Positions 4,569-57,394 of a DNA stretch of 64,000 nucleotides are shown piece by piece (position 1 is the stretch's first letter; every line of letters begins with the position of its first letter). The DNA lies in assembly GCF_028551275.1 (NCBI RefSeq), contig NZ_CP117025.1, positions 3,350,001-3,414,000 on the forward strand, read 5' to 3'. The notes below the pieces were generated by a model, which ran no database searches, had not been told where the DNA came from, and saw nothing but the letters and a program-made list of their open reading frames with translations. Both the position numbers and the translations under genes were made by a program. The stretch comes from Sphingomonas hankookensis (GTDB taxonomy: Bacteria > Pseudomonadota > Alphaproteobacteria > Sphingomonadales > Sphingomonadaceae).

Positions 4569-5984
4569 TTAGACCAACGCCGCGCTCACATCTCCACCCG
4601 GTGCCAACAAGGCATAGGCCCTCTCGACCGCCGCGACGAACTCCGCGTCCTCGCCCAGGTCGCCAATAACATCGCGCATTGTCAGCAACGCCGCTGGCTC
4701 CCCTGCCCGCGCCAGCAGCGCATCGGCGCGGGGGTCGACGAGTTTTTCGCCGCTGGCCTTGCGTCGTTCGAGGAAGCGGAACCATGCGGCGATCGGCACC
4801 GCCAGCCGCTCGACCGAACGCCCGGCCGCCCGCGCGTCGCGGATCGTGTCGCATAGCCGATAGGGCAGCTTTTGCGATCCGTCCCACGCGATCTGCGCCA
4901 GCTGGTGCGCGATCGCCGGGTTGGCGAAGCGCGCCAACACCGCATCGATATAGGCCGACAGGTCCATTTCGGCAGGCGGCGTGATCGACGGCGCGATATC
5001 CTGCCGCATCAGCCGTTCGGCGAACGCCGCGAGCGGGGCGCAGGCCATCGCGTCGCGCACCGTCGTCAGGCCCAACAGGATGCCGAGATAGGCGAGCGAC
5101 GAATGCGCGCCGTTCAGCAGGCGGAGCTTGGCGTTTTCGAACCCGCGCACATCGCGGGTGAATTTTGCGCCGGCAAGATCGAAGGGCGGGCGGTCGCCGG
5201 CGAAATCGTCCTCGATCACCCATTGCGCAAAGCCTTCGCGCTGGATCGGCCATGCATCCTCCAGCCCGGTGGCGGCAAGGACCGATGCCCTGAGGGCGTC
5301 GTCGGTGGCAGGCGTGATCGAATCGACCATGGTCGAGGGGAAGCGGACGTTGTCGTCGATCCACCTCGCCAGATCGGGATCGCGCGCGGCGGCGAGATCG
5401 CGGACCGAGCGGCGGAAGCGATGGCCGTTGTCCGCGAGATTGTCGCACGACAGCAGCGTGATCGCGCCGCCGCCCGCCGCCCGGCGCGCCGCCAAGCCGG
5501 CGACCAGCCAGCCGGACAGGGTCGACGGCTCCGCGCCGGTTAGTTCGCGGACGATGGCGGGATGCTCCATGTCGAGGGCGCCGCTGCAGTCGAGGTGATA
5601 GCCCTTCTCCGTCACGGTGGTCGTCACCATCCGCGTGGACGCCGCGGCGATGCGCGACAGGATCGCGTCGCGGCGCTGCGCCGTCAACAATTCGGTGATC
5701 GAGCCGATGACGCGGTGCCGCGTCTCCGCGCCTAGCAACGCCAGCGTATAGAGGCCGTCCTGCGGCGCCAGCGCATCGGCGACCCCGGTCGAGTTGAGCG
5801 CGACCGCGCTGATCGCCCAGCGCGGGTCCCGCCGCAAGATGCTGTCCACATAGGCCGCCTGATGCGCGCGATGGAACGCGCCGGGGCCGATATGGACGAT
5901 GCCCGGCGTCAGCGCGCTCCGGTCGTAATCGGGGCGGGCTATGGCGGCCGGCAGATGGCCAAGCGTCGCGTCGGACAGCCTCAC
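4569..5984 (-). CDS. Mannitol dehydrogenase-family hexuronate reductase (tagaturonate or fructuronate reductase)
   Basis: 471-residue NAD-dependent enzyme of the long-chain mannitol dehydrogenase family. The N-terminal part has GIVHIGPGAFHRAHQAAYVD and a Rossmann-type dinucleotide region; the C-terminal part has the family signature around FENAKLRLLNGAHSSLAYLG (Lys-x4-Asn-x2-His type). The start is GTG 5984, overlapping the uxaC TGA as GTGA; the open frame runs further upstream inside uxaC but is not used. With uxaC in the same operon and uxaA opposite, tagaturonate reductase (UxaB role) fits best. Fructuronate reductase (UxuB) cannot be excluded because the two are homologous. Confidence 0.82.
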   Translation of the reverse strand: MRLSDATLGHLPAAIARPDYDRSALTPGIVHIGPGAFHRAHQAAYVDSILRRDPRWAISAVALNSTGVADALAPQDGLYTLALLGAETRHRVIGSITELLTAQRRDAILSRIAAASTRMVTTTVTEKGYHLDCSGALDMEHPAIVRELTGAEPSTLSGWLVAGLAARRAAGGGAITLLSCDNLADNGHRFRRSVRDLAAARDPDLARWIDDNVRFPSTMVDSITPATDDALRASVLAATGLEDAWPIQREGFAQWVIEDDFAGDRPPFDLAGAKFTRDVRGFENAKLRLLNGAHSSLAYLGILLGLTTVRDAMACAPLAAFAERLMRQDIAPSITPPAEMDLSAYIDAVLARFANPAIAHQLAQIAWDGSQKLPYRLCDTIRDARAAGRSVERLAVPIAAWFRFLERRKASGEKLVDPRADALLARAGEPAALLTMRDVIGDLGEDAEFVAAVERAYALLAPGGDVSAALV

Positions 5985-7390
5985 AGCTTGTACGCCTGCT
6001 TGACGAGGCCATAGGCCAGGTCGTGGGCGACGGCGTGCGCATCCTCCTCGTCCAGCCGATGTTCGGCCACCAGTCGGGCGAGGAAGGCGCAATCGACGCG
6101 GCGGGCGACGTCGTGGCGCGCCGGGATCGACAGGAAGGCGCGGGTATCGTCGTTGAACCCGACGGTGTTGTAGAAGCCGGCCGTCTCGGTCGTCATCTCG
6201 CGGAAGCGGCGCATCCCCTCCGGCGAATCGTGGAACCACCATGCCGGGCCGAGCTTCAGGCAGGGATAATGGCCCGCCAGCGGCGCCAGTTCGCGGGCAT
6301 AGGTCGATTCATCGAGCGTGAAGAGGATGACGGTCAGTTCGGTCGAGGTGCCGACGACGTCGAGCATCGGCTTCAACGCCGCGACATAATCGGTGCGGGT
6401 CGGGATGTCGGCGCCCTTGTCGCGACCATAGGCGTCGAACAGGCCGCGATTGTGGTTGCGGAACGATCCGGGGTGAAGCTGCATCACCAGCCCGTCATCG
6501 ATCGACATGCGCGCCATTTCGGTCAGCATCTGCGCGCGGAACAGTTCGGCATCGGTCGCATCCGCCGCGCCTGCGACGACCTTGGCGAACAGGGCTTCGG
6601 CCTCGGCGGGCGAGAGGTTGGCGGTACGCGCGGTCGGATGGCCATGGTCGGTCGAGGTGGCGCCGGCGGCGATGAAGTCCTGCCGCCGTTTGCGGTGGGC
6701 GTTCAGATAGCCGGTCCAGTTATGGACGTCCTCCCCCGTCAGTTCGGCGAATGTGGCGAGCGCTCCGCGAAAGGCTTCGTGTTCGCAGTCGATCACCGCA
6801 TCGGGGCGATAGGCGGTGACGACCCGCCCGCCCCAGCCGCTTTCCCGTATCGCGCGGTGATGGTCGAGCGGGTCGTCGGCGCCTTCCGTCGTCGCGATCA
6901 GTTCGATGCCGAACCGGTCGAACAGCGCGCGCGGGCGATAGGCGTCGGTCGCGAGCAGTTCGCCGATCCGGTCGTAATAGTCGTCGGCATTGGCGGCGGT
7001 CAGTGCTTCGGTGAACCCGAAGACCGCGCCGAACACATGGTCGAGCCACAGCCGCGACGGGGTGCCGCGGAACAGATGCTGGTGGGCGGCGAACACCCGC
7101 CATGCCTTGCGCGGATCGGCGACGATCGTCCCGTCGCGACGCGGGACGGCGAGGTCGTCGAGCGCGATCCCCTGGCTGTAGAGCATGCGGAACAGATAAT
7201 GGTCGGGCGACAGCAGCAGCTCGGTCGCGTTGGTCCATGGGCGGTTCGTCGCGAACCAGGCCGGGTCGGTATGGCCGTGCGGGCTGACGATCGGCAGGTC
7301 GCGGACGGCGGCATAGAGGCTGCGGACGATGCCGCGCGTCGTCGGATCGGCCGGGAACAGGCGGTCGGGGTTCAGCAGCAGCGCGGGCAT
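5981..7390 (-). CDS. uxaC: Glucuronate (uronate) isomerase
   Basis: 469-residue cytoplasmic isomerase that converts D-glucuronate to D-fructuronate and D-galacturonate to D-tagaturonate, the first step of hexuronate breakdown. Recognisable blocks are LYAAVRDLPIVSPHGHTDP near the N-terminus, TEGADDPLDHH and MQLHPGSFRNHN. ATG 7390 is chosen over the upstream ATG 7420 because AGGAG lies at the right distance before it and the upstream start would overlap the operator palindrome. It is the first gene of a two-gene operon with the reductase, divergent from uxaA. Confidence 0.93.
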   Translation of the reverse strand: MPALLLNPDRLFPADPTTRGIVRSLYAAVRDLPIVSPHGHTDPAWFATNRPWTNATELLLSPDHYLFRMLYSQGIALDDLAVPRRDGTIVADPRKAWRVFAAHQHLFRGTPSRLWLDHVFGAVFGFTEALTAANADDYYDRIGELLATDAYRPRALFDRFGIELIATTEGADDPLDHHRAIRESGWGGRVVTAYRPDAVIDCEHEAFRGALATFAELTGEDVHNWTGYLNAHRKRRQDFIAAGATSTDHGHPTARTANLSPAEAEALFAKVVAGAADATDAELFRAQMLTEMARMSIDDGLVMQLHPGSFRNHNRGLFDAYGRDKGADIPTRTDYVAALKPMLDVVGTSTELTVILFTLDESTYARELAPLAGHYPCLKLGPAWWFHDSPEGMRRFREMTTETAGFYNTVGFNDDTRAFLSIPARHDVARRVDCAFLARLVAEHRLDEEDAHAVAHDLAYGLVKQAYKL

Positions 7391-7422
7391 TTCAGTCTCC
7401 TTGCGCCTTCGATGCGACATTG

Positions 7423-7436
7423 TGCCAGCGCTGGCA
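7423..7436. promoter_or_regulatory. 14-bp perfect palindrome, LacI-family-like operator
   Basis: TGCCAGCGCTGGCA, with the central CG typical of LacI/GalR-family operators, sits in the 64-bp gap between the divergent uxaC and uxaA starts. It probably controls both transcripts in response to a hexuronate. No regulator gene is adjacent, so the binding protein is inferred. Confidence 0.6.
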
Positions 7437-7454
7437 ACGGTCTATTTAGCCGCA

Positions 7455-8948
7455 ATGGCTGACCCAAATCCTGCCCGCGCCGTCCGGGTCGATCGCGACG
7501 ACGACGTCGCCCTGCTGCTCGATCCGGTGGCGGCGGGGGGCGCGGTGCGGTTCGACGATGCGACCGTGGTGGCGCGGGAGGACATTGCCCAGGGGCACAA
7601 GATCGCGGTGCGGGCGGTGGCTGCGGGCGCTCCGGTGCGGCGCTATCGCGCGGCGTTCGGGGTGGCGACGCGGGACATTGCGGCGGGCGAGCATGTCCAT
7701 GTCCACAATGTCCGGACGGCGCTGTCGGGCGAGGATGCCTATCGCTACGTCCCTGCCCTGCCGCCCCAGGCCGAACGTCGCGCGGAGCCGGGCTTTGCCG
7801 GCTATGTCCGTGCCGATGGCAGCGTGGGTACGCGCAACGAAATCTGGGTGCTGCCGACGGTCGGCTGTGTCGGGCGGCTGGGCGAGCGGATCGCAGGCTT
7901 GGCGGGGCCGCGCCATACCGGGCGGGTCGACGGGGTGCATGCGTTCAACCATCCGTTCGGCTGTTCGCAGCTGGGCGACGACCTGAACCGGACGGGCGCG
8001 ATCCTCGCGGCGCTGGCGTGCAATCCCAATGCCGGGGGCGTGGTGCTGCTCGGCCTCGGGTGTGAATCGAACCAGCTGGATGCGATGCTCGCGCGACTGC
8101 CCGCCGATGTACTGGCGCGGGTGCGGACGGTGCGGGCGCAGGCGAGCGCCGACGAGTTTGCCGAAGCGATGGCGGCGGTCGACGAACTGGCCGAAGCGGC
8201 GACGGCGAAGCGGGTGCCGGTGCCGCTGTCGGCGCTGCGGCTGGGCGTGAAGTGCGGCGGGTCCGATTCGATGTCGGGGCTGACCGCCAACCCGCTAATC
8301 GGGCGGATGACCGACCGGGTGGCGGCGGCGGGCGGCACGGTGCTGATGACCGAAATCCCCGAGATTTTCGGGGCGGAACGGCTGCTGATGGCGCGCTGTG
8401 CCGATGAAGCCGTGTTCGACCGGCTGGTCGAGGTGACCAACCGGTTCAAGCGCTATTTCCTCGACCATGGCGAGCCGGTGTCGGAGAATCCCAGCCCCGG
8501 CAATATCGCGGGCGGGATCACCACGCTGGAGGAAAAGTCGCTGGGCGCGGTACAGAAGGGCGGCGTGGCGACCGTCACCGACGTGCTCGACTATGGCGAG
8601 CCGGTGCGGAAGGCCGGGCTGTCGGTGGTCGATGGGCCGGGCAACGATGCGGTGTCGACGACCGCGCTGGCGGCGGCGGGGGCGACGATCACGCTGTTTT
8701 CGACCGGGCGGGGCACGCCGCTGGGGTCGCCGGTGCCGACGATGAAGATCGCGACCAATCGTGATCTGGCGACGCGCAAGGGGGGGTGGATCGATTTCGA
8801 CGCCAGCATCGCGCTGGACGAAGGGCAGGATGCGGCGGCGGATGCGTTGCTGGCGCGGATCGTGGCGGTGGCGTCGGGCGAGCCGGCGCGGAACGAGGCA
8901 AACGAGGAACGCGCGATTGGGATTTGGAAGTCGGGGGTTACGCTGTAG
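7455..8948 (+). CDS. uxaA: Altronate dehydratase
   Basis: 497-residue enzyme that dehydrates D-altronate to 2-keto-3-deoxygluconate. The N-terminal SAF-like domain (about residues 1-100, with VVAREDIAQGHKIAVRAV and DIAAGEHVHVHN) is followed by the catalytic domain: GYVRADGSVGTRNEIWVLPTVGC, FNHPFGCSQLGDD, LGLGCESNQ and KCGGSDSMSGLTANP. The cysteines in these blocks fit the metal-dependent family. ATG 7455 is used although the frame is open from 7329, because the extra codons cross the operator and the divergent promoter region. Confidence 0.93.
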   Translation: MADPNPARAVRVDRDDDVALLLDPVAAGGAVRFDDATVVAREDIAQGHKIAVRAVAAGAPVRRYRAAFGVATRDIAAGEHVHVHNVRTALSGEDAYRYVPALPPQAERRAEPGFAGYVRADGSVGTRNEIWVLPTVGCVGRLGERIAGLAGPRHTGRVDGVHAFNHPFGCSQLGDDLNRTGAILAALACNPNAGGVVLLGLGCESNQLDAMLARLPADVLARVRTVRAQASADEFAEAMAAVDELAEAATAKRVPVPLSALRLGVKCGGSDSMSGLTANPLIGRMTDRVAAAGGTVLMTEIPEIFGAERLLMARCADEAVFDRLVEVTNRFKRYFLDHGEPVSENPSPGNIAGGITTLEEKSLGAVQKGGVATVTDVLDYGEPVRKAGLSVVDGPGNDAVSTTALAAAGATITLFSTGRGTPLGSPVPTMKIATNRDLATRKGGWIDFDASIALDEGQDAAADALLARIVAVASGEPARNEANEERAIGIWKSGVTL

Positions 8949-9537: not shown

Positions 9538-10045
9538 GTCCGTCGCGATACCGCTTCGCCTTCCCAACATACACCGCCGCCGACATCCGCAACCCGGCGA
9601 GTTGCTCGTCGGTCAGCGTCTTGACCGCGCGTGCCGGGGCGCCGACGATCAAGCTCTTGGGCGGAAAACTCTTGCCCTCGGTCACCAGCGCCCCTGCCCC
9701 GACCACGCAATCCTCGCCGATCACCGCGTGGTTCAGCACCGTTGCTCCCATGCCGATCAGCACGCGGTCGCCGATGGTGCAGCCGTGGAGCACCGCGCGG
9801 TGGCCGATGGTGCAGTCTTCGCCCAGCGTCAGCGGCGCGCCGGGGTCGCTGTGGAGGACTGCGCCGTCCTGCACGTTGCTGCGCGCGCCGATGACGATCG
9901 CGCCATTGTCGGCGCGGACCACGGCGCCGAACCAGATGCTGGCCCCCGCCCCCAGCCGCACCGCGCCGATCAGGTCGGCGGACGGCGCGACCCAGCTGTC
10001 GGAGGCAAGGTCGGGAGTGGCGTCGGCGAGGGCGTAGATCGGCAT
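9521..10045 (-). CDS. Gamma carbonic anhydrase family protein
   Basis: 174-residue left-handed beta-helix protein built of hexapeptide repeats (IGAVRLGAGASIWFGAVVRAD, IVIGARSNVQDGAVLH, CTIGDRVLIGMGATVLNHAVIG). Histidines in AVLHSD, TIGHRAVLHG are placed as the zinc ligands of gamma carbonic anhydrases and the YrdA/PaaY group. The product may hydrate CO2 or act on thioesters; many homologues are catalytically weak. ATG 10045 (MPIYAL) is preferred to the longer open frame. It follows the histidine phosphatase by 13 bases. Confidence 0.85.
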   Translation of the reverse strand: MPIYALADATPDLASDSWVAPSADLIGAVRLGAGASIWFGAVVRADNGAIVIGARSNVQDGAVLHSDPGAPLTLGEDCTIGHRAVLHGCTIGDRVLIGMGATVLNHAVIGEDCVVGAGALVTEGKSFPPKSLIVGAPARAVKTLTDEQLAGLRMSAAVYVGKAKRYRDGLTALG

Positions 10046-10058
10046 GGCGCGGAGGCTA

Positions 10059-11219
10059 TCATCCCGCGACGACGGGGGCGAGTTTCGCGCGCAACAATTT
10101 GTCGAACCGGTCGAGCGGGCAGCGCTTCGCACAGCCGGGGATGGAGATCGGGCGATCGATCACCTTCGCAGTCCCCTTACGGATCGCGTCGAGCGGCTGC
10201 ACCCGGTAGGAGACGGTGACATACGGTCCCCGCGCGTCCCACCTGCGGGTCAGCACGAGTGCGCCGCCGGGGGCCGCATCGTTCCGCGCGAAACCGGGCG
10301 CGTCGAGATCGACGCCGAGTGCCGCCGCCAGCGCGGTGACGTTGGTGTCGTGGCCGACCAGCACTTCGAGGCGCGGACCATTCGCGGCGGTGAGCGTCCG
10401 CAGCATATGGTCGCCGACCGGCCCGGTCTGATGCGCGGTCATATAGGGTGAGCGGGTGAAGACGTCGAACAGCGCGGCGTGGAGCGCGCCCAGCCGGCGG
10501 ATCGTCGCGGCATCGGCGCGGCCGAAGCCGACGTCGCGCATCGGCATCCCCTCGGCATATTGCAGCAGGATCACCTGCGCGGTGCCCGACGTCGCGCGGA
10601 TCGGCCCGGTAAAGTCGACGCCGCGTCCATCGGCGGAGGGTTTCAGCGTCGCCAGGCCCGGCGTCGAACAGCCCGCGGGCAGGCCGCAGCCGAGCACGCG
10701 GTCGAGTTCGCGGATCGTGGCGGCATGGCGGGCGGTCAGCGCGTTCACCCCGCCGGTATAGGCGGTGATCGCCGCGACGGCCTTCGTCGCGTCGAACGCG
10801 GTCGCGCCGGCGCGCAGCGGTTCGAACAGCGGGTCGGTCTTGCCCTCCGGGTTATGCTCGACAGTCAGGTTGCAGCCGGGAGCGAGCGCGTCGGCATAGG
10901 CGCGGCCGGTGGCGATGGTGCGCTCGGGCGTGTTGGTGTGGATGCGGACGGTGCCGGGCGCGGGGCAGCCGGCGCCATTCAGCCAGCGGCGGTCGTGGCG
11001 GGCGAGTTGGGCGATTGCCCGAGCACCGTGGGGGGTGAGGAATTCGGGGGCGACCGGCCATGTCGGCCACTGTCCGGCGACCTTCGTGTCGAGCGGCGCC
11101 TCCCCGGTGATCGGCGCGCGCACGCCGTGGCGCATCAGCATCACGACGCGCTCCACCCGGTCCTGCGCTGCGGCGGGTAGCGGGGTCAGCAGGGTTGCGG
11201 CGAGGAGCAGGAGGCGCAT
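10059..11219 (-). CDS. Histidine-type acid phosphatase (phytase / glucose-1-phosphatase type)
   Basis: 386-residue exported phosphatase. A signal peptide (MRLLLLAATLLTPLPAAAQ) precedes the catalytic motif MRHGVRAP, whose histidine forms the phospho-enzyme. The distal proton-donor motif is VGHDTNV. Six or more cysteines suggest periplasmic disulfides. This family releases phosphate from sugar phosphates or phytate. It lies downstream of the TonB receptor on the same strand, separated by 267 bases of repeats, which suggests the receptor may import the same phosphorylated substrate or its products (inference). ATG 11219 follows a weak ribosome site. Confidence 0.85.
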   Translation of the reverse strand: MRLLLLAATLLTPLPAAAQDRVERVVMLMRHGVRAPITGEAPLDTKVAGQWPTWPVAPEFLTPHGARAIAQLARHDRRWLNGAGCPAPGTVRIHTNTPERTIATGRAYADALAPGCNLTVEHNPEGKTDPLFEPLRAGATAFDATKAVAAITAYTGGVNALTARHAATIRELDRVLGCGLPAGCSTPGLATLKPSADGRGVDFTGPIRATSGTAQVILLQYAEGMPMRDVGFGRADAATIRRLGALHAALFDVFTRSPYMTAHQTGPVGDHMLRTLTAANGPRLEVLVGHDTNVTALAAALGVDLDAPGFARNDAAPGGALVLTRRWDARGPYVTVSYRVQPLDAIRKGTAKVIDRPISIPGCAKRCPLDRFDKLLRAKLAPVVAG

Positions 11220-25042: not shown

Positions 25043-25300
25043 GGTTTCACGCGGAGGCGCGGAGGCGCGGAGGCGCGGAGGCGCGGAGAAGGAGATGAAG
25101 AGAGTTTTCGCGCAGAGGCGCCGAGGACGCTGAGATGTTGGGGAGCAGGCCATCTCGGCCTGTCTGGCGCAGCCTGGTTCCTGCCGGCGGCCGATGATGG
25201 AGAGCCGCTGTCGCGGCGAGCGTTACCCCTCAGCGTCCTCTGCGCCTCTGCGCGCAATCAAAACTTCTTCTTCGCGTCTCCGCCCCTTCGCGTGAAAACC
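25043..25300. repeat. Large intergenic inverted repeat, family F, with 8-bp tandem array
   Basis: Outer arms GGTTTCACGCGGAGG and the matching CGCGTGAAAACC flank inner arms of the CGCAGAGGCGCCGAGGACGC type. Within the left arm, 25051-25088, the unit GCGGAGGC is repeated almost five times. The element fills the entire gap between the convergent wecC and nucleotidyltransferase genes. Confidence 0.75.
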
Positions 25301-26305
25301 CTATCTCTTCCGAAACTTGGTCCACAAATGCCGCGCCAGCATGACCGGCGGCATCCGCAGCCAGTGCGAGCGGACATAGAAGCCGAACTCGGTCCCCTTA
25401 TGGCTGAGCCGTCCCCAGCCGTCGCGCGCCAGCAGGCGGCGGGCGAACAGCGCGTCGGACGCGACCGGATCGCCGCCCCCCGGCGTCCCGTAGATGCGCC
25501 GCGCCAATCGTAGCGCCCGCGCGACCGCATCCGACAGATCGTGCAGCGCCGCCCGCTCGGTCAACGACGCGACGAACCCGGCATCCCGATCGACAAACTC
25601 GCGGACCAGCCGGTCGATATCCCACAGGTTGCGTAAGCCACCCTGCAGGTCGCCATCGGCGAACAGGTGCGCAGCGGCGTGGACCACCATATCCTCCGGG
25701 CACAGCACCGACAGGCCGTTACCAAGCGGCACCGCCCCGGCGATCAGCGCTGCCGCGTCAGGCTTAGGTCGTGCGGTGGGCGGCAGGATCGTGTGGTGGA
25801 CGTCGATCATCCGGTCGCGTGTCCGGTGGATCAGCGGCGGCAGCTCGTGCATCCAGCGGCGGTAATAGGCGTCGTCATAGGGGTCGGGCTTCACCCATTC
25901 CCACCCGGCGGCCAGCAGCGCCGCCTCCACCGCATTGAGGGCGTCGCGCGGCACGAGGATGTCGAGATCACCGATCGCCCGCCCCCGCCCCGCATCCAGT
26001 CCGGCGGCGACGAAGGCGGTGCCCTTCAGCAGAACGATCGGCAAACCCAGCGGGGCGAGCGCGCGCCGTGCCATCTCCGCCTCCCACAATGCTGCCACGC
26101 GCCCCTGTTCGGCGGACGCGCGCGCGTCGGCCATGATGCGTGCGGCGGCAGGGGGCATCTCGATCCCGTCGAGCCGGGTGGCAAGGCTGCCGATCAGCTG
26201 CTCCGCCCGCGCCGCCGCGATCAGCGCGTTCCAGCTGTCGGCGGAATCCAGACCGTCCCACAACTCGGGATCGGCGAGCGCGCCGGCCGTCCTGGCATCC
26301 GTCAT
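25301..26305 (-). CDS. Nucleotidyltransferase-family protein of HPr-rel-A type cassette
   Basis: 334-residue member of the NTP_transf_5-like family. The nucleotidyltransferase core is seen in IVLLKGTAFVAAGL (about 90-103) and the metal-binding GDLDILVPRDALNAVEAAL (112-130). The later DRMIDVHHTILPP and CPEDMVVHAAAHLF are typical of this family. The enzyme may transfer a nucleotide or extend a phosphate on a protein or sugar; the substrate is unknown. ATG 26305 overlaps the HprK-like gene as ATGA. The cassette partners suggest it modifies a product of the kinase (inference). Confidence 0.75.
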   Translation of the reverse strand: MTDARTAGALADPELWDGLDSADSWNALIAAARAEQLIGSLATRLDGIEMPPAAARIMADARASAEQGRVAALWEAEMARRALAPLGLPIVLLKGTAFVAAGLDAGRGRAIGDLDILVPRDALNAVEAALLAAGWEWVKPDPYDDAYYRRWMHELPPLIHRTRDRMIDVHHTILPPTARPKPDAAALIAGAVPLGNGLSVLCPEDMVVHAAAHLFADGDLQGGLRNLWDIDRLVREFVDRDAGFVASLTERAALHDLSDAVARALRLARRIYGTPGGGDPVASDALFARRLLARDGWGRLSHKGTEFGFYVRSHWLRMPPVMLARHLWTKFRKR

Positions 26306-27165
26306 GCCAGTTTCCCCCACAGCCCCTCCACCAGCGCCAGCGCGGTGTCGGTATCGGGATAGTCGATCGCCCGCACCGGCATTCGCCCGACCAGGCCGGT
26401 CAGCGCATCGAACCCGCGCTCGCCCATCGCGACATAGTTGGTCGATGCCTGGGTCAGCCGCACGAAGGTTTCGGCCGCCTCGACCGGCCGCACCGCCTCC
26501 GCCTGTCCGAAGGTCGGGAACAGCAGCAAAGCAGGGACGGCGGGGCGATCCATCGCGGCGATAGCGGCGGCATCGGGAACGAGGTGGCGAATGTCCCCCT
26601 TCGGCGTGCCCGCCAGCAGCGGGCCGAACCGGCCGGCGGGTGCCGCGCGTTCCATCACCCCGATCGCCTGATTCTTCAGGCTGATGAGCCTGGGAAAGGC
26701 ATGGACCAGTCCGGTCGCCGGATCGAGCAGCGCGAACTCGTCGCCCATCAACCGCCAGCCGCGCGTCATCAGCAGCGCCGCCAGCGTCGACTTGCCCGCA
26801 CCCGATTCGCCGGTCATCAGCAGCGCCCGCCCGTCGCGCTCGACCGCCGAGGCGTGGAGCAGCAGATAGCGGCGCTGCGCCAGCGCCATCTGCAAATTCA
26901 TCCCCATCTCGGCCGCCAGCAGCCCTTGGCGCAGCGGCAGCGGCGCGGCATCGGGGATGGTGAAATCGCCGCCGATCATCACCGATGGGCGCACGAACCG
27001 CCGCCACGGTCGCGCGGCGAACAGGCGGACGTTGAAATCGGCGATGCCGTCCTCGGGCCGGGGATAGTCGCGATACAGGTCACGCAACTGGTCGACCGGG
27101 CCGCGCCAGTCGCTGCCGATGCGAAAGCCTATGGGGCCGATGCGCAGCGTCGCAACGTGCCTCAC
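26302..27165 (-). CDS. HprK-related kinase A
   Basis: 287-residue HPr kinase-like protein. The P-loop core is LLHASAVERDGRALLMTGESGAGKSTLAALL with Walker A GESGAGKST at 119-127, followed by WRLMGDEFALLDP at 138-149, matching the HprK C-terminal domain. It lacks the HprK N-terminal domain, and no HPr gene is adjacent, so the target is unlikely to be HPr. I recall an NCBIfam family named HprK-related kinase A for this arrangement. Start GTG 27165 overlaps the PqqD-like stop as GTGA, giving tight translational coupling. Confidence 0.8.
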   Translation of the reverse strand: MRHVATLRIGPIGFRIGSDWRGPVDQLRDLYRDYPRPEDGIADFNVRLFAARPWRRFVRPSVMIGGDFTIPDAAPLPLRQGLLAAEMGMNLQMALAQRRYLLLHASAVERDGRALLMTGESGAGKSTLAALLMTRGWRLMGDEFALLDPATGLVHAFPRLISLKNQAIGVMERAAPAGRFGPLLAGTPKGDIRHLVPDAAAIAAMDRPAVPALLLFPTFGQAEAVRPVEAAETFVRLTQASTNYVAMGERGFDALTGLVGRMPVRAIDYPDTDTALALVEGLWGKLA

Positions 27166-27446
27166 GCCGGTTGGTCCAAGCGTTCGGCCAGTCCGGTATC
27201 GACCAGTTCGTCCAGCCGCGCGGTCAGTGCCGCCGCATCGCCATCGGGCAGGTCGAACCGCTCGGCCAGCGCCGCCAGCAGTTCGTCGGCAGTCATTGCC
27301 CGGTCGGCCAGCAGATCGAGCAGTTCGGGCACCGGCGGCGCGACGACATGGGTCTGGCCCGATGCGCGGTGATAGACGGCGCTGAGCGTATCGAGCGCGA
27401 CGACCCGGAGAGCAGCCGGCGGCGGCGCGCGATAGCGTGCCGGCAT
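27162..27446 (-). CDS. PqqD-like protein of HPr-rel-A type cassette
   Basis: 94-residue protein with a PqqD/RRE-like layout: a short strand-rich start (LRVVALDTLSAVYHRASGQTHVVAPPVPELLDLL) and then two helices (MTADELLAALAERFDLP and AAALTARLDELVDTGLAERL) typical of PqqD-type domains. In peptide-modifying systems such domains bind a substrate peptide and present it to an enzyme. ATG 27446 begins 7 bases after the stop of the small Tat-signal protein. The open frame upstream of 27446 overlaps that gene and is not used. Confidence 0.72.
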   Translation of the reverse strand: MPARYRAPPPAALRVVALDTLSAVYHRASGQTHVVAPPVPELLDLLADRAMTADELLAALAERFDLPDGDAAALTARLDELVDTGLAERLDQPA

Positions 27447-27453
27447 GGAAGCG

Positions 27454-27849
27454 TCAGCCGCGCGGCATCTGGAGCGAGGCGAAGCAGGTGAAGCCGCTGG
27501 TCCCGTTCTGCAACCGCTGGACATATTTCAGATAGGCGCGGGTCGTATCGCCATCGGTGCCGGGCAAATTCTGCCCCTTCATCGCCAGCTTCACCTGTTC
27601 GCCGGTGAAGGGGCGGTTGGCGCCGGGAAAGGCGCCGGGCGTGCCGGGGGCGACGACCTGTCCGTCGGCGGCGATCATCTGCCCGGCGCGCGCGCGGTCG
27701 GGGATCGGGATTTCGCAGGTCATGATCGACGCCTGGGTCTGTGCCAGCGCCGGACGGATCGACACTACCGCCGACGCGCTCGCCGCGCCGATCAGCAGCG
27801 TGCGCCGCGCGAGCCTGCCATCGGGCGAAGGGGTGGGAGCGTCGGTCAT
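27454..27849 (-). CDS. Small Tat-signal secreted protein, first gene of the HPr-rel-A type cassette
   Basis: 131 residues of unknown family. The N-terminus has a twin-arginine signal (LARRTLLIGA at 13-22, then a mild hydrophobic stretch ending in PALA at 33-36). The mature part of about 95 residues has just two cysteines, 45 and 122, and ends QMPRG. Being folded before export fits cytoplasmic modification by the downstream kinase and transferase, so this protein is a candidate substrate, but that is inference. It is the promoter-proximal gene, divergent from phoR. Confidence 0.65.
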   Translation of the reverse strand: MTDAPTPSPDGRLARRTLLIGAASASAVVSIRPALAQTQASIMTCEIPIPDRARAGQMIAADGQVVAPGTPGAFPGANRPFTGEQVKLAMKGQNLPGTDGDTTRAYLKYVQRLQNGTSGFTCFASLQMPRG

Positions 27850-27965
27850 CGCGCCATCTTCCCCAACCCGGCATAATTCGCAATCGCAAAGAGGGTTAAC
27901 CTGTCCGATCGCGGGGCACGCCGCTCCCTCTGGCCTTGATCGTCACTTCCGCCTAATCGGGGGCG

Positions 27966-29168
27966 ATGGACGAATTCGGCCCCCGCCTGCCCCTCGCCCT
28001 CGCCATCGCGATCGGCGTCGCCCTGCTGGCGCTGCTGCTGGGTGCCGGGATCAATGCCAGCGCGGTCGTGGCGGTCGGCGCGGTCGCCGCCGTGCTCGTC
28101 GCCGGGCTGCACCCGCCCGAACGCGGCACCAGCGAATCGCCCGATACCGCGCGCCAGCATGTCGTCGCCGCGACCCAGGCGGCGATCGATGCGGTCGACG
28201 AACCGATCCTGGTGATCGCGCGCGGCCATGTCGAGGCGGCGAACCCCGCCGCGCTCTCGCTGCTCGGCCAGCATGTCGTCGGCGGCGACGTCCGCCTCGC
28301 CATCCGCCACCCCGCGGCGGCCGAGCGGCTGTTAGGCACGCGCGACGATCGGGAACCGGTCGGGCTGGTGGGGCTTGGCGCGCGCGACCAGAGCTGGGAG
28401 ATGCGGGTCCGCCCGCTCGCCGACGACCGCCGGCTCGTCCATCTGGTCGACCGTACCGGCAACCGCGCGACCGAAAAGATGCGAGTCGATTTCGTCGCCA
28501 ATGCCAGCCACGAACTGCGCACCCCGCTCGCCTCGCTGCTGGGCTTCATCGAAACCTTGCGCGACGAGGCGGGGGAAGACCCGGCCGTGCGCGAACGCTT
28601 CCTGAAGGTCATGAACGACGAAGCGCGGCGGATGCAGCGGCTGATCGACGACCTGATCTCCTTGAGCCGGATCGAGGCGGAGAAATACCGCCCGCCCGAC
28701 CAGGCGGTCGACCTGTCGGCGATGGTGCCGGCGGTGCAGGGCGAACTGGCCGCGACCAACCCGACGCGCGGTGCCGACATCGTGCTGTCGGTCGCCCCCG
28801 ATGTGACCGTGATCGGCGACCGGGCGCAATTGTCGCAGCTGCTGCACAACGTCATGGGCAATGCGATGAAATATGGCCGCGCCGGCACGCCGGTCGAAAT
28901 AAGCCTGACCGCGCGCGATACCATGGCGGCGCTGGTGGTGCGCGATCATGGCGAGGGGGTCGCAATCGAGCATCTGCCGCGGCTGACCGAGCGATTTTAC
29001 CGTGTCGATTCAGGGCGCAGCCGGGCGCTGGGCGGCACCGGCCTCGGCCTTGCCATCGTCAAGCATATCGTCGAACGGCATCGCGGCCGGCTCGATATCG
29101 GCAGCGTGGTGGGCGACGGCACGACGGTTTCCGTGCTGCTGCCCCTCCACGGTGTCATAAAGGCGTAA
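27966..29168 (+). CDS. phoR: Phosphate regulon sensor histidine kinase
   Basis: 400-residue membrane kinase. Two hydrophobic helices lie at about 8-26 and 30-48, a PAS-like region follows (about 65-165), and then the H-box VANASHELRTPLASLLGF with the phosphorylated histidine at 182. N-box HNVMGNAMKYG, G1 DHGEGV and G2 GGTGLGLAIVKH complete the ATP-binding domain. It senses Pst/PhoU state and phosphorylates PhoB. Unusually, it heads the pst operon here and phoB closes it; the gap to pstS is only 67 bases. Confidence 0.92.
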   Translation: MDEFGPRLPLALAIAIGVALLALLLGAGINASAVVAVGAVAAVLVAGLHPPERGTSESPDTARQHVVAATQAAIDAVDEPILVIARGHVEAANPAALSLLGQHVVGGDVRLAIRHPAAAERLLGTRDDREPVGLVGLGARDQSWEMRVRPLADDRRLVHLVDRTGNRATEKMRVDFVANASHELRTPLASLLGFIETLRDEAGEDPAVRERFLKVMNDEARRMQRLIDDLISLSRIEAEKYRPPDQAVDLSAMVPAVQGELAATNPTRGADIVLSVAPDVTVIGDRAQLSQLLHNVMGNAMKYGRAGTPVEISLTARDTMAALVVRDHGEGVAIEHLPRLTERFYRVDSGRSRALGGTGLGLAIVKHIVERHRGRLDIGSVVGDGTTVSVLLPLHGVIKA

Positions 29169-54046: not shown

Positions 54047-54881
54047 GGGTCAGGACCCATTGATATGAGGATCGCGATCTGATTCAGGCTCTGCGAGGAG
54101 ACCCGAATGAGCGACCTTTTTTGGCTGACGGACGAGCAGATCGAGCGGCTGCGGCCGTTCTTTCCCAAGAGCCACGGCAAGCCGCGTGTCGATGACCGGC
54201 GGGTGCTCAGCGGCATCGTCTTCGTCAACCGCAACGGGCTGCGCTGGCGAGACGCGCCAAGCGCGTATGGTCCTCACAAGACGCTGTATAACCGGTGGAA
54301 GCGCTGGGGCGAGCGAGGCGTATTCACGCGCATGATGGAGGGGCTGGCGGCGGTCGATGCGGAGCCCAAGACCGTGATGATCGACGCGACCTACCTGAAG
54401 GCGCACCGCATGGCATCAAGCCTGCGGGTTAAAAAGGGGATCTCGGCCGCCTTATCGGCCGCACCAAAGGCGGCATGAACACAAAGCTCCATGCCATCGC
54501 CGACGCGAACGGGAGGCCCTTGAGCTTCTTCATGACCGCGGGCCAGGTCAGCGACTACACCGGGGCGGCCGCGCTGCTTGATGACATGCCTGCGGCACAG
54601 TGGCTGCTCGGTGATCGCGGCTACGACGCCGACTGGTTCCGCGACGCTCTCCAGGCCAAGGGCATTGAGCCCTGCATACCGGGTCGCAAATCCCGCAACG
54701 AGCCGGTCCGATACGATAAGCGCCGATACCGGCGCCGCAGCCGCATTGAGATCATGTTTGGCCGCCTCAAGGACTGGCGCCGCGTCGCAACCCGCTACGA
54801 TCGCTGCCCGACCGCCTTCTTCTCCGCCATCGCCCTCGCTGCCACCATCATCTTCTGGCTGTAATCAACGAGTCCTGACCC
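54047..54881 (+). mobile_element. IS5-family (IS427 group) insertion sequence
   Basis: 835 bp from GGGTCAGGACCCATTGAT to the complementary ATCAACGAGTCCTGACCC (15 of 18 matching). It is flanked by TA on both sides (54045-54046 and 54882-54883), fitting the target preference of this group. One transposase is encoded over two frames. Confidence 0.9.
54107..54864 (+). CDS. IS5-family transposase (two frames joined by -1 frameshift)
   Basis: The first frame (54107-54478) carries LTDEQIERLRPFFP and the first catalytic Asp in VMIDATYLKAHR. The second (54475-54864) carries LLGDRGYDADWF (second Asp) and RRRSRIEIMFGRLKDWRR (Glu). The frames meet at a run AAAAAGGGG near 54431, a slippery site, so the active DDE transposase of about 250 residues is made by programmed -1 frameshifting, as is usual in the IS427 group. 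Confidence 0.88.
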
Positions 54882-55233
54882 TAGATATTGGGCTGCTTCG
54901 GCGCGCGTCAGCCGCCCCTCGGTGCCCTGCACAGCATCCGACAAACCAATCTTCGGCATAGCCACAACCTCTCAATCGCCAATTTTGGCCCAGATAGCGC
55001 TACGATTTCCGATGTCAACCCGCACATACCGCGGACACGCCCAATTTAAACAGACAAACTGAAAGATACTCGATATTACTTTTACAACATAACGAAAATT
55101 AGTACTTCTATCCTATAATTCTAATTCAGCTATTTTGTTTCTGTTGTCTAAAGTTTCTGCCTTTTGTCCGCGATCAAGCGAATCGTTGACTTATACGGAA
55201 TTTGCGCCATCTTCGTCCACGAACGGAGTTGCT

Positions 55234-56355
55234 ATGGCTATAAAATTCAGAAAGCTGACGCGGGCGAAGATCAAGGAACTGACGGTTGGCGCGTCCATCA
55301 CCGAACACGGCATCACGGCGACCGGGTTGAAGGGCGGTGATGTCCGATACGCCGTGAACATCATGGTGGACGGGCTTCGGATTCACCGCGCCATAGGGAA
55401 GGCAAGCGAGGGCGTCACCCGTCAGCAGGCGGAGGACGCTATCGAACTGCTTCGCACCCGCGCTCGCGAAGATCGCCTTGGCTTGCCGACAGGTCGAAAG
55501 ACGCACCGCATGTTCGAGGAAGCTGCCACGGGCTACCTTGAAGGGTTGGAACAGGGCACAGGAAAGAACCTGACTGCGAAACGCCGACAGCTTGTCACGC
55601 ATTTGATTCCGGCATTCCGTAAAAACCGGGCGGACAAAATCACCACGCAGATGGTGCAAAGCTATGTGCGGGATCGCCTCTCCACGGGCGCTGCACAGGC
55701 CACGGTGAACCGCGAACTTGCCACCCTTTCCCATCTCTTCAAACGCATGATTGAATGGAAGTGGATCAAGGCGGAGGATACTCCATTGGTGTCCAAGGGT
55801 GCCGAACCACCCAAAGCGATTACGGTCCTAAGCGACGCTGACGCAACGGCGCTGCGGCATGCGGCGATTGGGGATCAAGACGGATTGCTGCACCTATTTG
55901 TGGAATTGGGCTTGGGTACAGCTATGCGTCATAGCGAAATCCTCGGCATCCGTTACGATCAGATCGATTTCAATGCGCGGCGTATCTACCTCGCGAGGGC
56001 GAAAGCCGGACCGCGTCAGCAGCCCATTACGCGAAGCCTCGCCGCTATCATTGCCGCTGCCCGCGAGCGAGCGCAGGACAAATCAGGATGGGTCTTTCCG
56101 TCGCAGCGCAATGCTAAGGACGCAACGCATCGCCTTAGCATGGCAAAGCAGTTCAAGCGGGCTGTCGAACGGGCTGGCCTATGTCCCCAGCGGGTAACGC
56201 CGCACGTCATGCGACATACCGTCATTTCCCAACTGGCCCAAGCGGGCATCGATCTACCGACAATTCAACAAATCAGTGGGCACAAAACCTTGGGTATGGT
56301 CATGCGATACGTCCACATTCACGGCACCCATATCGACAATGCGATTAGAGTCTGA
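55234..56355 (+). CDS. int: Tyrosine-type site-specific integrase, C-terminus altered by IS630
   Basis: 373 residues. An N-terminal arm-binding domain, a SAM-like core-binding domain (about 110-190, MFEEAATGYLEGLEQGTG), and the catalytic domain with LGLGTAMRHSEILGI (Arg), RAKAGPRQQPI (Lys), HVMRHT (His-x-x-Arg), GHKTLGMVMRYVH (His and nucleophile Tyr). All five catalytic residues are present. The last two residues and stop come from the IS630 terminal repeat; the original frame continued at 57397 to a stop at 57479, adding about 26 residues. ATG 55234 has a GGAG ribosome site; upstream 54960-55233 is AT-rich and holds no gene. Confidence 0.9.
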   Translation: MAIKFRKLTRAKIKELTVGASITEHGITATGLKGGDVRYAVNIMVDGLRIHRAIGKASEGVTRQQAEDAIELLRTRAREDRLGLPTGRKTHRMFEEAATGYLEGLEQGTGKNLTAKRRQLVTHLIPAFRKNRADKITTQMVQSYVRDRLSTGAAQATVNRELATLSHLFKRMIEWKWIKAEDTPLVSKGAEPPKAITVLSDADATALRHAAIGDQDGLLHLFVELGLGTAMRHSEILGIRYDQIDFNARRIYLARAKAGPRQQPITRSLAAIIAAARERAQDKSGWVFPSQRNAKDATHRLSMAKQFKRAVERAGLCPQRVTPHVMRHTVISQLAQAGIDLPTIQQISGHKTLGMVMRYVHIHGTHIDNAIRV

Positions 56356-57394
56356 ATCGTCTGGGTTGAATCGAAGGGGGATTCACACGGCGCAAGAAGT
56401 CTGATTCAAGCTGCTGGCCGTGCGGAGGTCGGCAGCTGTGGGTCGAGCCTATTCGGATGATCTGCGTGAGCGGGTAGCGGTGTCGGTACTGAATGGCCGG
56501 TCGTGTCGGGCGACAGCCGAGCTGTTCGGCGTCAGCGTATCGAGTGCGGTGAAGTGGTCTCAGCGCCGCCGGGCAACGGGCAGCGCCGCGGCCCGGCCGC
56601 CGGGACGCAAGCAGCCACGTTCGCTGGCGGCCGAGCGCGCGTGGCTGCTGGAGCGGCTGGCGACCAAGCCGGACGTCACGCTGCGCGCGCTGGTGGCGGA
56701 ACTGGGTGAACGCGGTGTGGTGACGAGCTACGGTTCGGTGTGGCGGATCGTGCGCGAGGCCGGGATCACGTTCAAAAAAAGACGCTGATCGCCCGCGAGC
56801 AGGACCGGCCCGCGGTTGCCAGGCGCCGCGCACAATGGCGCAAGTATCAAGGCCGGATCGATCCCCGCCGCCTCGTCTTCATCGACGAAACCTGGGCCAA
56901 GACCAACATGACGCGCCTGCGCGGCTGGTGCGCTCGCGGCCTGCCGCTGGTCGACAAGGTGCCGCACGGCCACTGGCGCACGCTGACCTTCCTGGCGGCG
57001 CTCCGCTGCGACCGGATCGACGCGCCGCTCGTGCTCGACGGCCCCATCAACGGCGAGAGTTTCACCGGCTATGTCGAGCAGTTCCTGCTGCCGACCCTCT
57101 CGCCCGGCGATATCGTCGTCATGGACAATCTGGGCAGCCACAAGGGCAAGGCCGTGCGGCAGCTCATCCGCTCCGTCGGCGCCAGGCTCCTGTTCCTGCC
57201 GCCCTACTCGCCCGACCTCAACCCCATCGAGCAGGTCTTCGCCAAGCTCAAGACGCTGCTCCGCAAGGCCAACACCCGATCGGTCGAGGCGACATGGAAG
57301 CAGATCGGCTCCCTCCTCGATGCCTTCCCACCTCACGAATGCGCCAACTATCTCAGCAACAGCGGGTACGCGTCAGCTTAGATGGATCAAACTC
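56348..57394 (+). mobile_element. IS630-family insertion sequence
   Basis: 1047 bp with imperfect ends GAGTCTGAATCGTCT and (inverted) GAGTTTGATCCATCT, flanked by TA at 56346-56347 and 57395-57396, the target of this family. It is inserted in the 3' end of the integrase gene. Confidence 0.88.
56420..57381 (+). CDS. IS630-family transposase (two frames joined by -1 frameshift)
   Basis: The first frame (56420-56788; GTG start, or GTG 56438) holds the helix-turn-helix SCRATAELFGVSVSSAVKWSQR and a winged region. At the seven-A run 56774-56780 a -1 slip leads into the second frame (to 57381), which has the DDE residues in VFIDETWAKTNM, IVVMDNLGSHKG and YSPDLNPIEQVFAKLK. Total about 320 residues. 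Without the slip the first frame stops at once. Confidence 0.9.

Follow-up and report, generated by a model that had tools for sequence, protein, structure and literature searches.

On which molecule do the enzymes of an HPr-rel-A system act? The question is raised by a cassette of four genes in Sphingomonas hankookensis (family Sphingomonadaceae), found in a 64,000-nucleotide stretch of contig NZ_CP117025.1 (assembly GCF_028551275.1, positions 3,350,001 to 3,414,000 of the forward strand; hereafter the window, whose numbering is used throughout) from a genome that is 99.98% complete. The cassette lies wholly on the minus strand, spans 27849-25301 and reads, in order of transcription:

27849..27454, minus strand: small protein with a twin-arginine translocation (Tat) signal, 131 amino acids (aa), the proposed substrate; conserved family without a Pfam or NCBIfam model
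27446..27162, minus strand: PqqD-like protein, TIGR04353, 94 aa; predicted recognition element (RRE) for ribosomally synthesized and post-translationally modified peptides (RiPPs)
27165..26302, minus strand: HprK-related kinase A, TIGR04352, 287 aa, GTG start; H104, K125 and D142 conserved
26305..25301, minus strand: nucleotidyltransferase NTP_transf_5, PF14907, 334 aa; GR-x3-D-x-D and D168-x-H conserved

The layout is as an earlier note on this DNA had described it: a 7-base gap (27453-27447) separates the small gene from the PqqD-like gene, which shares a GTGA overlap with the kinase gene, and the kinase and nucleotidyltransferase genes share an ATGA overlap. The note's naming of the set as HPr-rel-A also held. 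The kinase scores 248.2 bits against NCBIfam TIGR04352 (HprK_rel_A, cut-off 200) and the PqqD-like protein 61.8 bits against TIGR04353 (PqqD_rel_X, cut-off 35), and by these curated cut-offs the cassette is an HPr-rel-A system; the nucleotidyltransferase, at 174.1 bits against Pfam PF14907 (cut-off 31.2), is presumably part of that system too. As named, HPr-rel-A lacks the Tat protein, since no NCBIfam model matches the small protein over its cut-off; its single Pfam match lies far under the cut-off (12.3 versus 25 bits). Among 51 relatives in A1, one of three alignments of small-protein family members (A1-A3), single members gave weak matches to Tat-signal models (one NCBIfam, two Pfam) and one matched the unrelated model SepX/GlpR; there were no other family matches. 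A literature search that left most subscription journals and all preprints outside its scope found no paper naming HPr-rel-A, HprK-related kinase A or TIGR04352, and none joining any two of exosortase, PqqD and HprK.

The small Tat protein is a regular partner of the HPr-rel-A cassette. In genome searches over 298 genomes of the Sphingomonadaceae, TIGR04352 was matched over cut-off in 100, and the A1 profile of the small protein matched 102, namely all 100 kinase-positive genomes and 2 of the 198 negatives, both of them weakly (G017, E 2e-5; G027, E 2e-4, in a frame that holds a stop). The association has a Fisher P of 3e-78, a value not corrected for phylogeny. Seven genera (g22, g36, g44, g51, g54, g69 and g91) mix positives and negatives, which corrects for kinship in part, and the nine negatives within them, judged by eye, are without both genes (G107, G118, G182, G127, G053, G129, G137, G192 and G279). 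When 97 of the 100 kinase loci were read (those of G025, G177 and G185 being left out), phmmer found all four genes in 87 and the small gene in 88. The remaining nine hold a diverged copy upstream (L076, L083), a copy spread over two frames (L098), a small gene upstream of an inserted glycosyltransferase gene (L028/L171) or a small gene elsewhere in the genome (G040, G042, G122, G224 and G293); in these last five kinase-positive genomes the small gene is unlinked yet present, and the pair therefore outlasts loss of linkage.

The reverse test started from the small protein alone, scanning with a closer alignment of it and keeping the best 80 of 382 relatives, a set that leans to close relatives. 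All 80 of these named loci carry the PqqD and kinase genes and 78 also the nucleotidyltransferase, the four genes keeping the same strand and order in those 78; in the other two (L193, L213) the DNA stops at or near the kinase end. The cassette is thus not a chance arrangement, because the same genes, strand and order recur in 78 of the 80 named loci and 87 of the 97 kinase loci. The earlier note had said that its reading would be refuted if the Tat family occurred mostly without the other three genes. This is not what is seen: the kinase accompanies it in 100 of the 102 matching family genomes, and PqqD and kinase in 80 of the 80 named loci.

The partnership extends beyond the family. In a sample of the phylum, TIGR04352 was matched over cut-off in 61 of 398 genomes, and 36 outside loci (L132-L167; one from the same order, the other 35 from outside the class, in further families of the phylum) were read as stop-to-stop frames. 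In 33 of them a Tat-type protein, as recognized by motif and eye, is encoded just upstream of the PqqD and kinase genes (in L164 the motif takes the form SRRKFL); in the other three (L147, L148 and L155; genomes G365, G377 and G420) a member lies on another contig. The mature parts of these proteins differ from one another, and ten that were tested gave no Pfam or NCBIfam match over cut-off. By eye, 21 of the 33 end in a C-x-x-S tail, C-W-x-S in nearly all, that resembles the TC-Y/F-A-S tail of the Sphingomonadaceae. A profile (A4) of 17 tailed beta small proteins matches 40 of the 398 genomes, all 40 among the 61 kinase-positives; six of these (G473, G397, G040, G421, G587 and G622) match in the signal part only. 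The C-x-x-S motif was used in picking the A4 members, so that its presence in 17 of 17 there is circular and was left out as evidence. In L149, one 708-aa frame (5938-8064, plus strand) holds both kinase and nucleotidyltransferase, whether by natural fusion or read-through, and so ties the two together.

What in the small protein might be acted upon is suggested by its most conserved residues:

27742..27849, minus strand: proposed Tat signal or leader, residues 1-36, with RR at 15-16 and conserved RPALA before the expected cleavage site (A1-A3; cleavage site predicted)
27727..27729, minus strand: Ser41 codon, candidate site of modification close to the mature N-terminus; fully conserved in A2 and A3, at least 90% in A1
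27715..27717, minus strand: Cys45 codon, invariant in A1-A3
27484..27486, minus strand: Cys122 codon, invariant in A1-A3
27475..27477, minus strand: Ser125 codon, Ser of the C-x-x-S tail and candidate phosphorylation site; invariant in A1-A3

The residues invariant in A1 are M1, R15, P33, A36, C45, G119, C122 and S125. R15 and A36 supply the twin-arginine and AxA motifs of a Tat signal, and TatC is encoded in the same genome; we propose that the small protein is a Tat substrate exported via TatC. Of 90 family proteins, 89 have the C-x-x-S tail, the lone exception (L026) having a split frame, as do 80 of 80 named ones; the background is 75 in 1259 gene calls in general, the small proteins themselves included. 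The motif S-x(2-4)-C-x-[IVFL], which corresponds to S41 and C45 in the aligned set, occurs in 90 of 90 family and 80 of 80 named proteins. The earlier note had singled out the two cysteines: C45 and C122 are indeed the only ones and both are conserved. Conservation points equally to serine (S125, or S41).

Two studied systems offer a precedent. In lasso-peptide clusters, where the earlier note had already pointed to HprK-like kinases and nucleotidyltransferases, the accessible part of PMC9266682 describes PadeK, ThcoK, SyanK and PsmK as phosphorylating the last Ser of lasso precursors and PsmN as attaching a hexose to the phosphate. The closer precedent, in the accessible part of PMC13381572, is that of the linear polyphosphorylated peptides (LPP), in which LppK phosphorylates Ser3; LPP and paeninodins are said there to be restricted to Bacillota. 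Like LPP loci as that source presents them, the cassette combines a discrete RRE, an HprK-like kinase, an NTP (nucleoside triphosphate) transferase and a small precursor-like gene, and LPP precursors likewise have a conserved N-terminus, a variable C-terminus and a leader removed by a signal-peptidase-type step (PMC13381572). The LPP gene set is therefore present here, with the small protein as the putative precursor. LPP systems differ in having, by the same partial account, a SipW-like peptidase of their own, a transporter resembling MsbA and a YxxP leader (PMC13381572), whereas the four cassette genes, as distinct from neighbours grouped by sequence, include neither peptidase nor exporter, and the host is a sphingomonad rather than a member of the Bacillota. 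The words Tat, twin-arginine, Proteobacteria and Pseudomonadota are absent from the main text of PMC13381572, and the literature found on twin-arginine signals with RiPP leaders, as far as it was accessible, concerns engineered or heterologous lanthipeptides.

Paeninodin- and pseudomycoidin-type lasso systems, in the accessible accounts, share with the cassette an HprK-like kinase acting on a terminal Ser, a nucleotidyltransferase and an RRE; unlike their short peptides, the substrate proposed here is a precursor of 131 aa. A search of the own genome for a lasso macrolactam cyclase gave a best NF033535 match of 200.5 bits (cut-off 525), beside an exosortase. With HprK/P the kinase shares an alignable P-loop, His and Asp, but the best solved HprK/P reaches only 24.3 bits to it, TIGR00679 only 29.4 bits (cut-off 240), Glu143 stands where HprK's ADD has its second Asp, and the proposed substrate is not HPr.

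Because the combination of RRE, HprK-like kinase and NTP transferase phosphorylates a precursor Ser in both studied cases, the small protein is the candidate substrate. On balance we think it probable, with appreciable room for doubt, that the small protein is the substrate of the RRE, kinase and nucleotidyltransferase and is exported by Tat in modified form. The cassette would then be a proteobacterial counterpart of the lasso and LPP systems, with a Tat signal as its leader and a secreted protein as its substrate. We infer the following course. The 131-aa protein would be made as a ribosomal precursor, and its N-terminal Tat signal would also be, or would overlap with, a leader read by the PqqD-like RRE, which in the cytoplasm would present the precursor to the HprK-like kinase. 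The kinase would phosphorylate one of the conserved Ser residues. The likeliest is S125 of the C-x-x-S tail, the alternative being S41 next to the first Cys; S125, near the C-terminus, would be a lasso-like site and S41, near the mature N-terminus, an LPP-like one, and S125 is favoured for its strict invariance in A1 and its presence in the tailed proteins outside the family. The nucleotidyltransferase would then put a nucleotidyl or sugar group on the phosphate, and the finished, probably folded protein would exit via Tat, with the signal cut after RPALA. Outside, the product, probably with a C45-C122 disulfide, may act with surface polysaccharide.

Features of the three enzymes are consistent with this course. 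The structural model of the PqqD-like protein has a winged-helix RRE fold, like leader-bound lasso-peptide RREs, and by fold the protein is a predicted RRE for which leader binding is proposed; as a guess, the stretch it reads may be [ST]xxPx[LIVFAM] at the Tat-signal end, present in 75 of 85 and 80 of 80 leaders. H104, K125 and D142 of the kinase, aligned with HprK, are kept in 97 of 97 family and 36 of 36 outside loci, and D113 and D115 of the nucleotidyltransferase in 96 of 96 family sequences and all 31 outside sequences found. To the eye none of the PqqD-like protein, kinase and nucleotidyltransferase has an export signal, and modification would therefore precede export. The AlphaFold2 model of the small protein has residue blocks from about 51 to 110 with predicted local distance difference test (pLDDT) scores of 81-88, falling from 65 to 40 in the conserved tail; this would suit a flexible tail read by an enzyme, although a low score alone is no proof of disorder.

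The same fold and signal bear on a different account, in which the PqqD-like protein holds the signal as a proofreading chaperone for Tat and the enzymes assemble or load a group or cofactor derived from a nucleotide, with no Ser phosphorylation. In its favour are the fitness of Tat for cargo that is already folded and loaded and the peptide-binding nature of the RRE fold (the fold matches include solved complexes); the conserved Cys pair would fit as well. We consider this rather unlikely, given that the two systems studied, each with an RRE, an HprK-like kinase and an NTP transferase, target Ser of a ribosomal peptide for phosphorylation, as far as their accessible accounts go, and that the small protein has no cofactor-binding family match over cut-off.

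Several points weigh against the proposal of a modified protein exported by Tat. The enzymes could have a different substrate altogether. The Tat assignment comes from motif and eye, with no trained predictor, and the phylogenetic correction of the co-occurrence is limited to the seven mixed genera. Among the 36 outside loci, a PqqD profile match lies between the Tat-type gene and the kinase in only 25, while in eight further ones a short frame fits as PqqD or the gene was not identified; phmmer found the nucleotidyltransferase in 31, some of the others lying at a contig end. Twelve outside Tat-type proteins are longer (about 160-295 aa) and have no C-x-x-S tail; its absence from these proteins of 12 of the 36 loci means that S125 is not a universal site. 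Stretches resembling 'PGxW' or 'HGYW' occur in about eight of the twelve. In the leaders searched, the aromatic motif typical of lasso and LPP precursors is nearly absent, [YW]xxPx[LVIFA] occurring in 1 of 85 and [YW]xxP in 0 of 80. With an overall pLDDT of 66.6 the small-protein model is weak, and Foldseek gave it no match at E <= 0.001; against PDB sequences the small-protein profile found at best E 0.0046, within the signal region.

Downstream of the cassette in the family lie genes that are presumably glmU-like (52 of 67 loci) and glmS-like (33 of 67). Other neighbours speak for a third account, in which a polysaccharide or lipid-linked sugar is what the enzymes modify and the exported protein serves to bind or anchor that glycan. 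The next genes downstream in the window, which adjoin the cassette, are presumably wecB/wecC-like. Of five outside loci whose neighbours were scanned (eight proteins), three place the cassette among XrtA/PEP-CTERM exopolysaccharide genes (L141, TIGR03108; L139, TIGR03087 and TIGR03088; L134, TIGR02915 and TIGR02917), and L142 and L164 have other genes. Two loci carry a glycosyltransferase gene inside the operon, between the small gene and the PqqD gene: a GT4 gene by Pfam in L171 (4464-5642) and a GT4-like one, by likeness only, in L230 (5473-6633). Within the family an exosortase is found in 98 of 100 kinase-positive genomes versus 153 of 198 negatives (Fisher 4e-7), the two positives without a match being G012 and G117 (91% and 87% complete). 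As an obligate partner the exosortase was rejected, being present outside the family in 20 of 49 positives versus 5 of 29 hand-picked negatives, counted by eye. An RRE-type protein points to a peptide substrate and the exosortase is not obligate, and we regard the glycan account as improbable.

Upstream, the cassette is divergent from genes (27966-29168, on to 32940) that we take to be phoR-like and pst-like; the phoR-like gene has this position in 53 of 67 family loci (flanks up to 5 kb) and 64 of 80 named loci. Taken with the kinase's resemblance to HprK, this would suit a regulatory account, in which export of the small protein is controlled through reversible phosphorylation of its cytoplasmic pool by the kinase, on the pattern of HprK and HPr, and the mature product does not keep the phosphate. 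We hold this to be very improbable: the small protein has no HPr family match, no Pho box was found beside the phoR-like gene, where the best scores were no better than those of shuffles, and the nucleotidyltransferase is left unexplained. One further feature lies before the small gene:

27876..27890, minus strand: conserved operator-like 15-base element (TTTGCGATTGCGAAT), about 26 bases before the small-gene start codon

Its best site beats the 99% shuffle level in 71 of the 80 named loci, and at a score of at least 12 its profile, trained on these sites, has 77 of its 89 matches in those loci at that place. The pattern occurs twice in the own genome at one mismatch; the second site, inside an open reading frame (ORF) presumably encoding a short-chain dehydrogenase-like protein, is taken as chance. 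An operator shared by unlinked genes was also considered and rejected, with no match at a score of at least 10 in L168, L169, L070 and L074.

Variant and adjoining arrangements were also seen. The small gene of L168 stays beside a histidine kinase gene though the other three genes lie elsewhere, and in L070, L074, L085 and L094, where the small gene is unlinked, what we take to be a MarR-like regulator gene (about 150 aa) lies upstream of PqqD. Records labelled Bacillus sp. 2B10 (L176) and Microvirga sp. SRT01 (L215) carry a sphingomonad cassette, with small-protein identities of 94% and 59%, and are probably mislabelled or mixed assemblies. L101 (4977-6101) encodes a different kinase of the superfamily, with a long N-terminal part and 69 bits to TIGR04352 (cut-off 200), which adjoins a nucleotidyltransferase-like frame; the two are perhaps another system. 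In L164 the gene at 9806-11113, close to the HPr-rel-A cassette, resembles an anti-phage dGTPase (535 bits to NF041026, cut-off 400). In the window itself, a short GC-rich repeat of ggaggcgc units (about 25050-25090) lies right past the 3' end of the cassette, and several ORFs in a row at about 54107-57381 are presumably transposase-like.

That an RRE, an HprK-like kinase and an NTP transferase can work together on a ribosomal substrate was already known; a Tat-exported protein as the substrate, and its regular pairing with HPr-rel-A, appear to be new. HPr-rel-A, on which the literature search gave no paper, thereby gains a likely substrate. More tentatively, at somewhat less than even confidence, HPr-rel-A may be a widespread proteobacterial RiPP-like class in which the RRE reads the Tat signal as a leader. 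Secreted substrates of protein size, their mature parts unrelated, would then be phosphorylated in the cytoplasm, receive a nucleotidyl or sugar group there and leave through Tat as finished products. If the proposal for the cassette is right, phosphorylating RiPP-type machinery would reach from the short peptides of Bacillota to secreted proteins of Proteobacteria, and Tat would be the export route for such products for the reason that the cargo is modified and folded. The system would also be tied to surface polysaccharide loci, as in LPP, which often lie within capsule loci according to the accessible part of PMC13381572.

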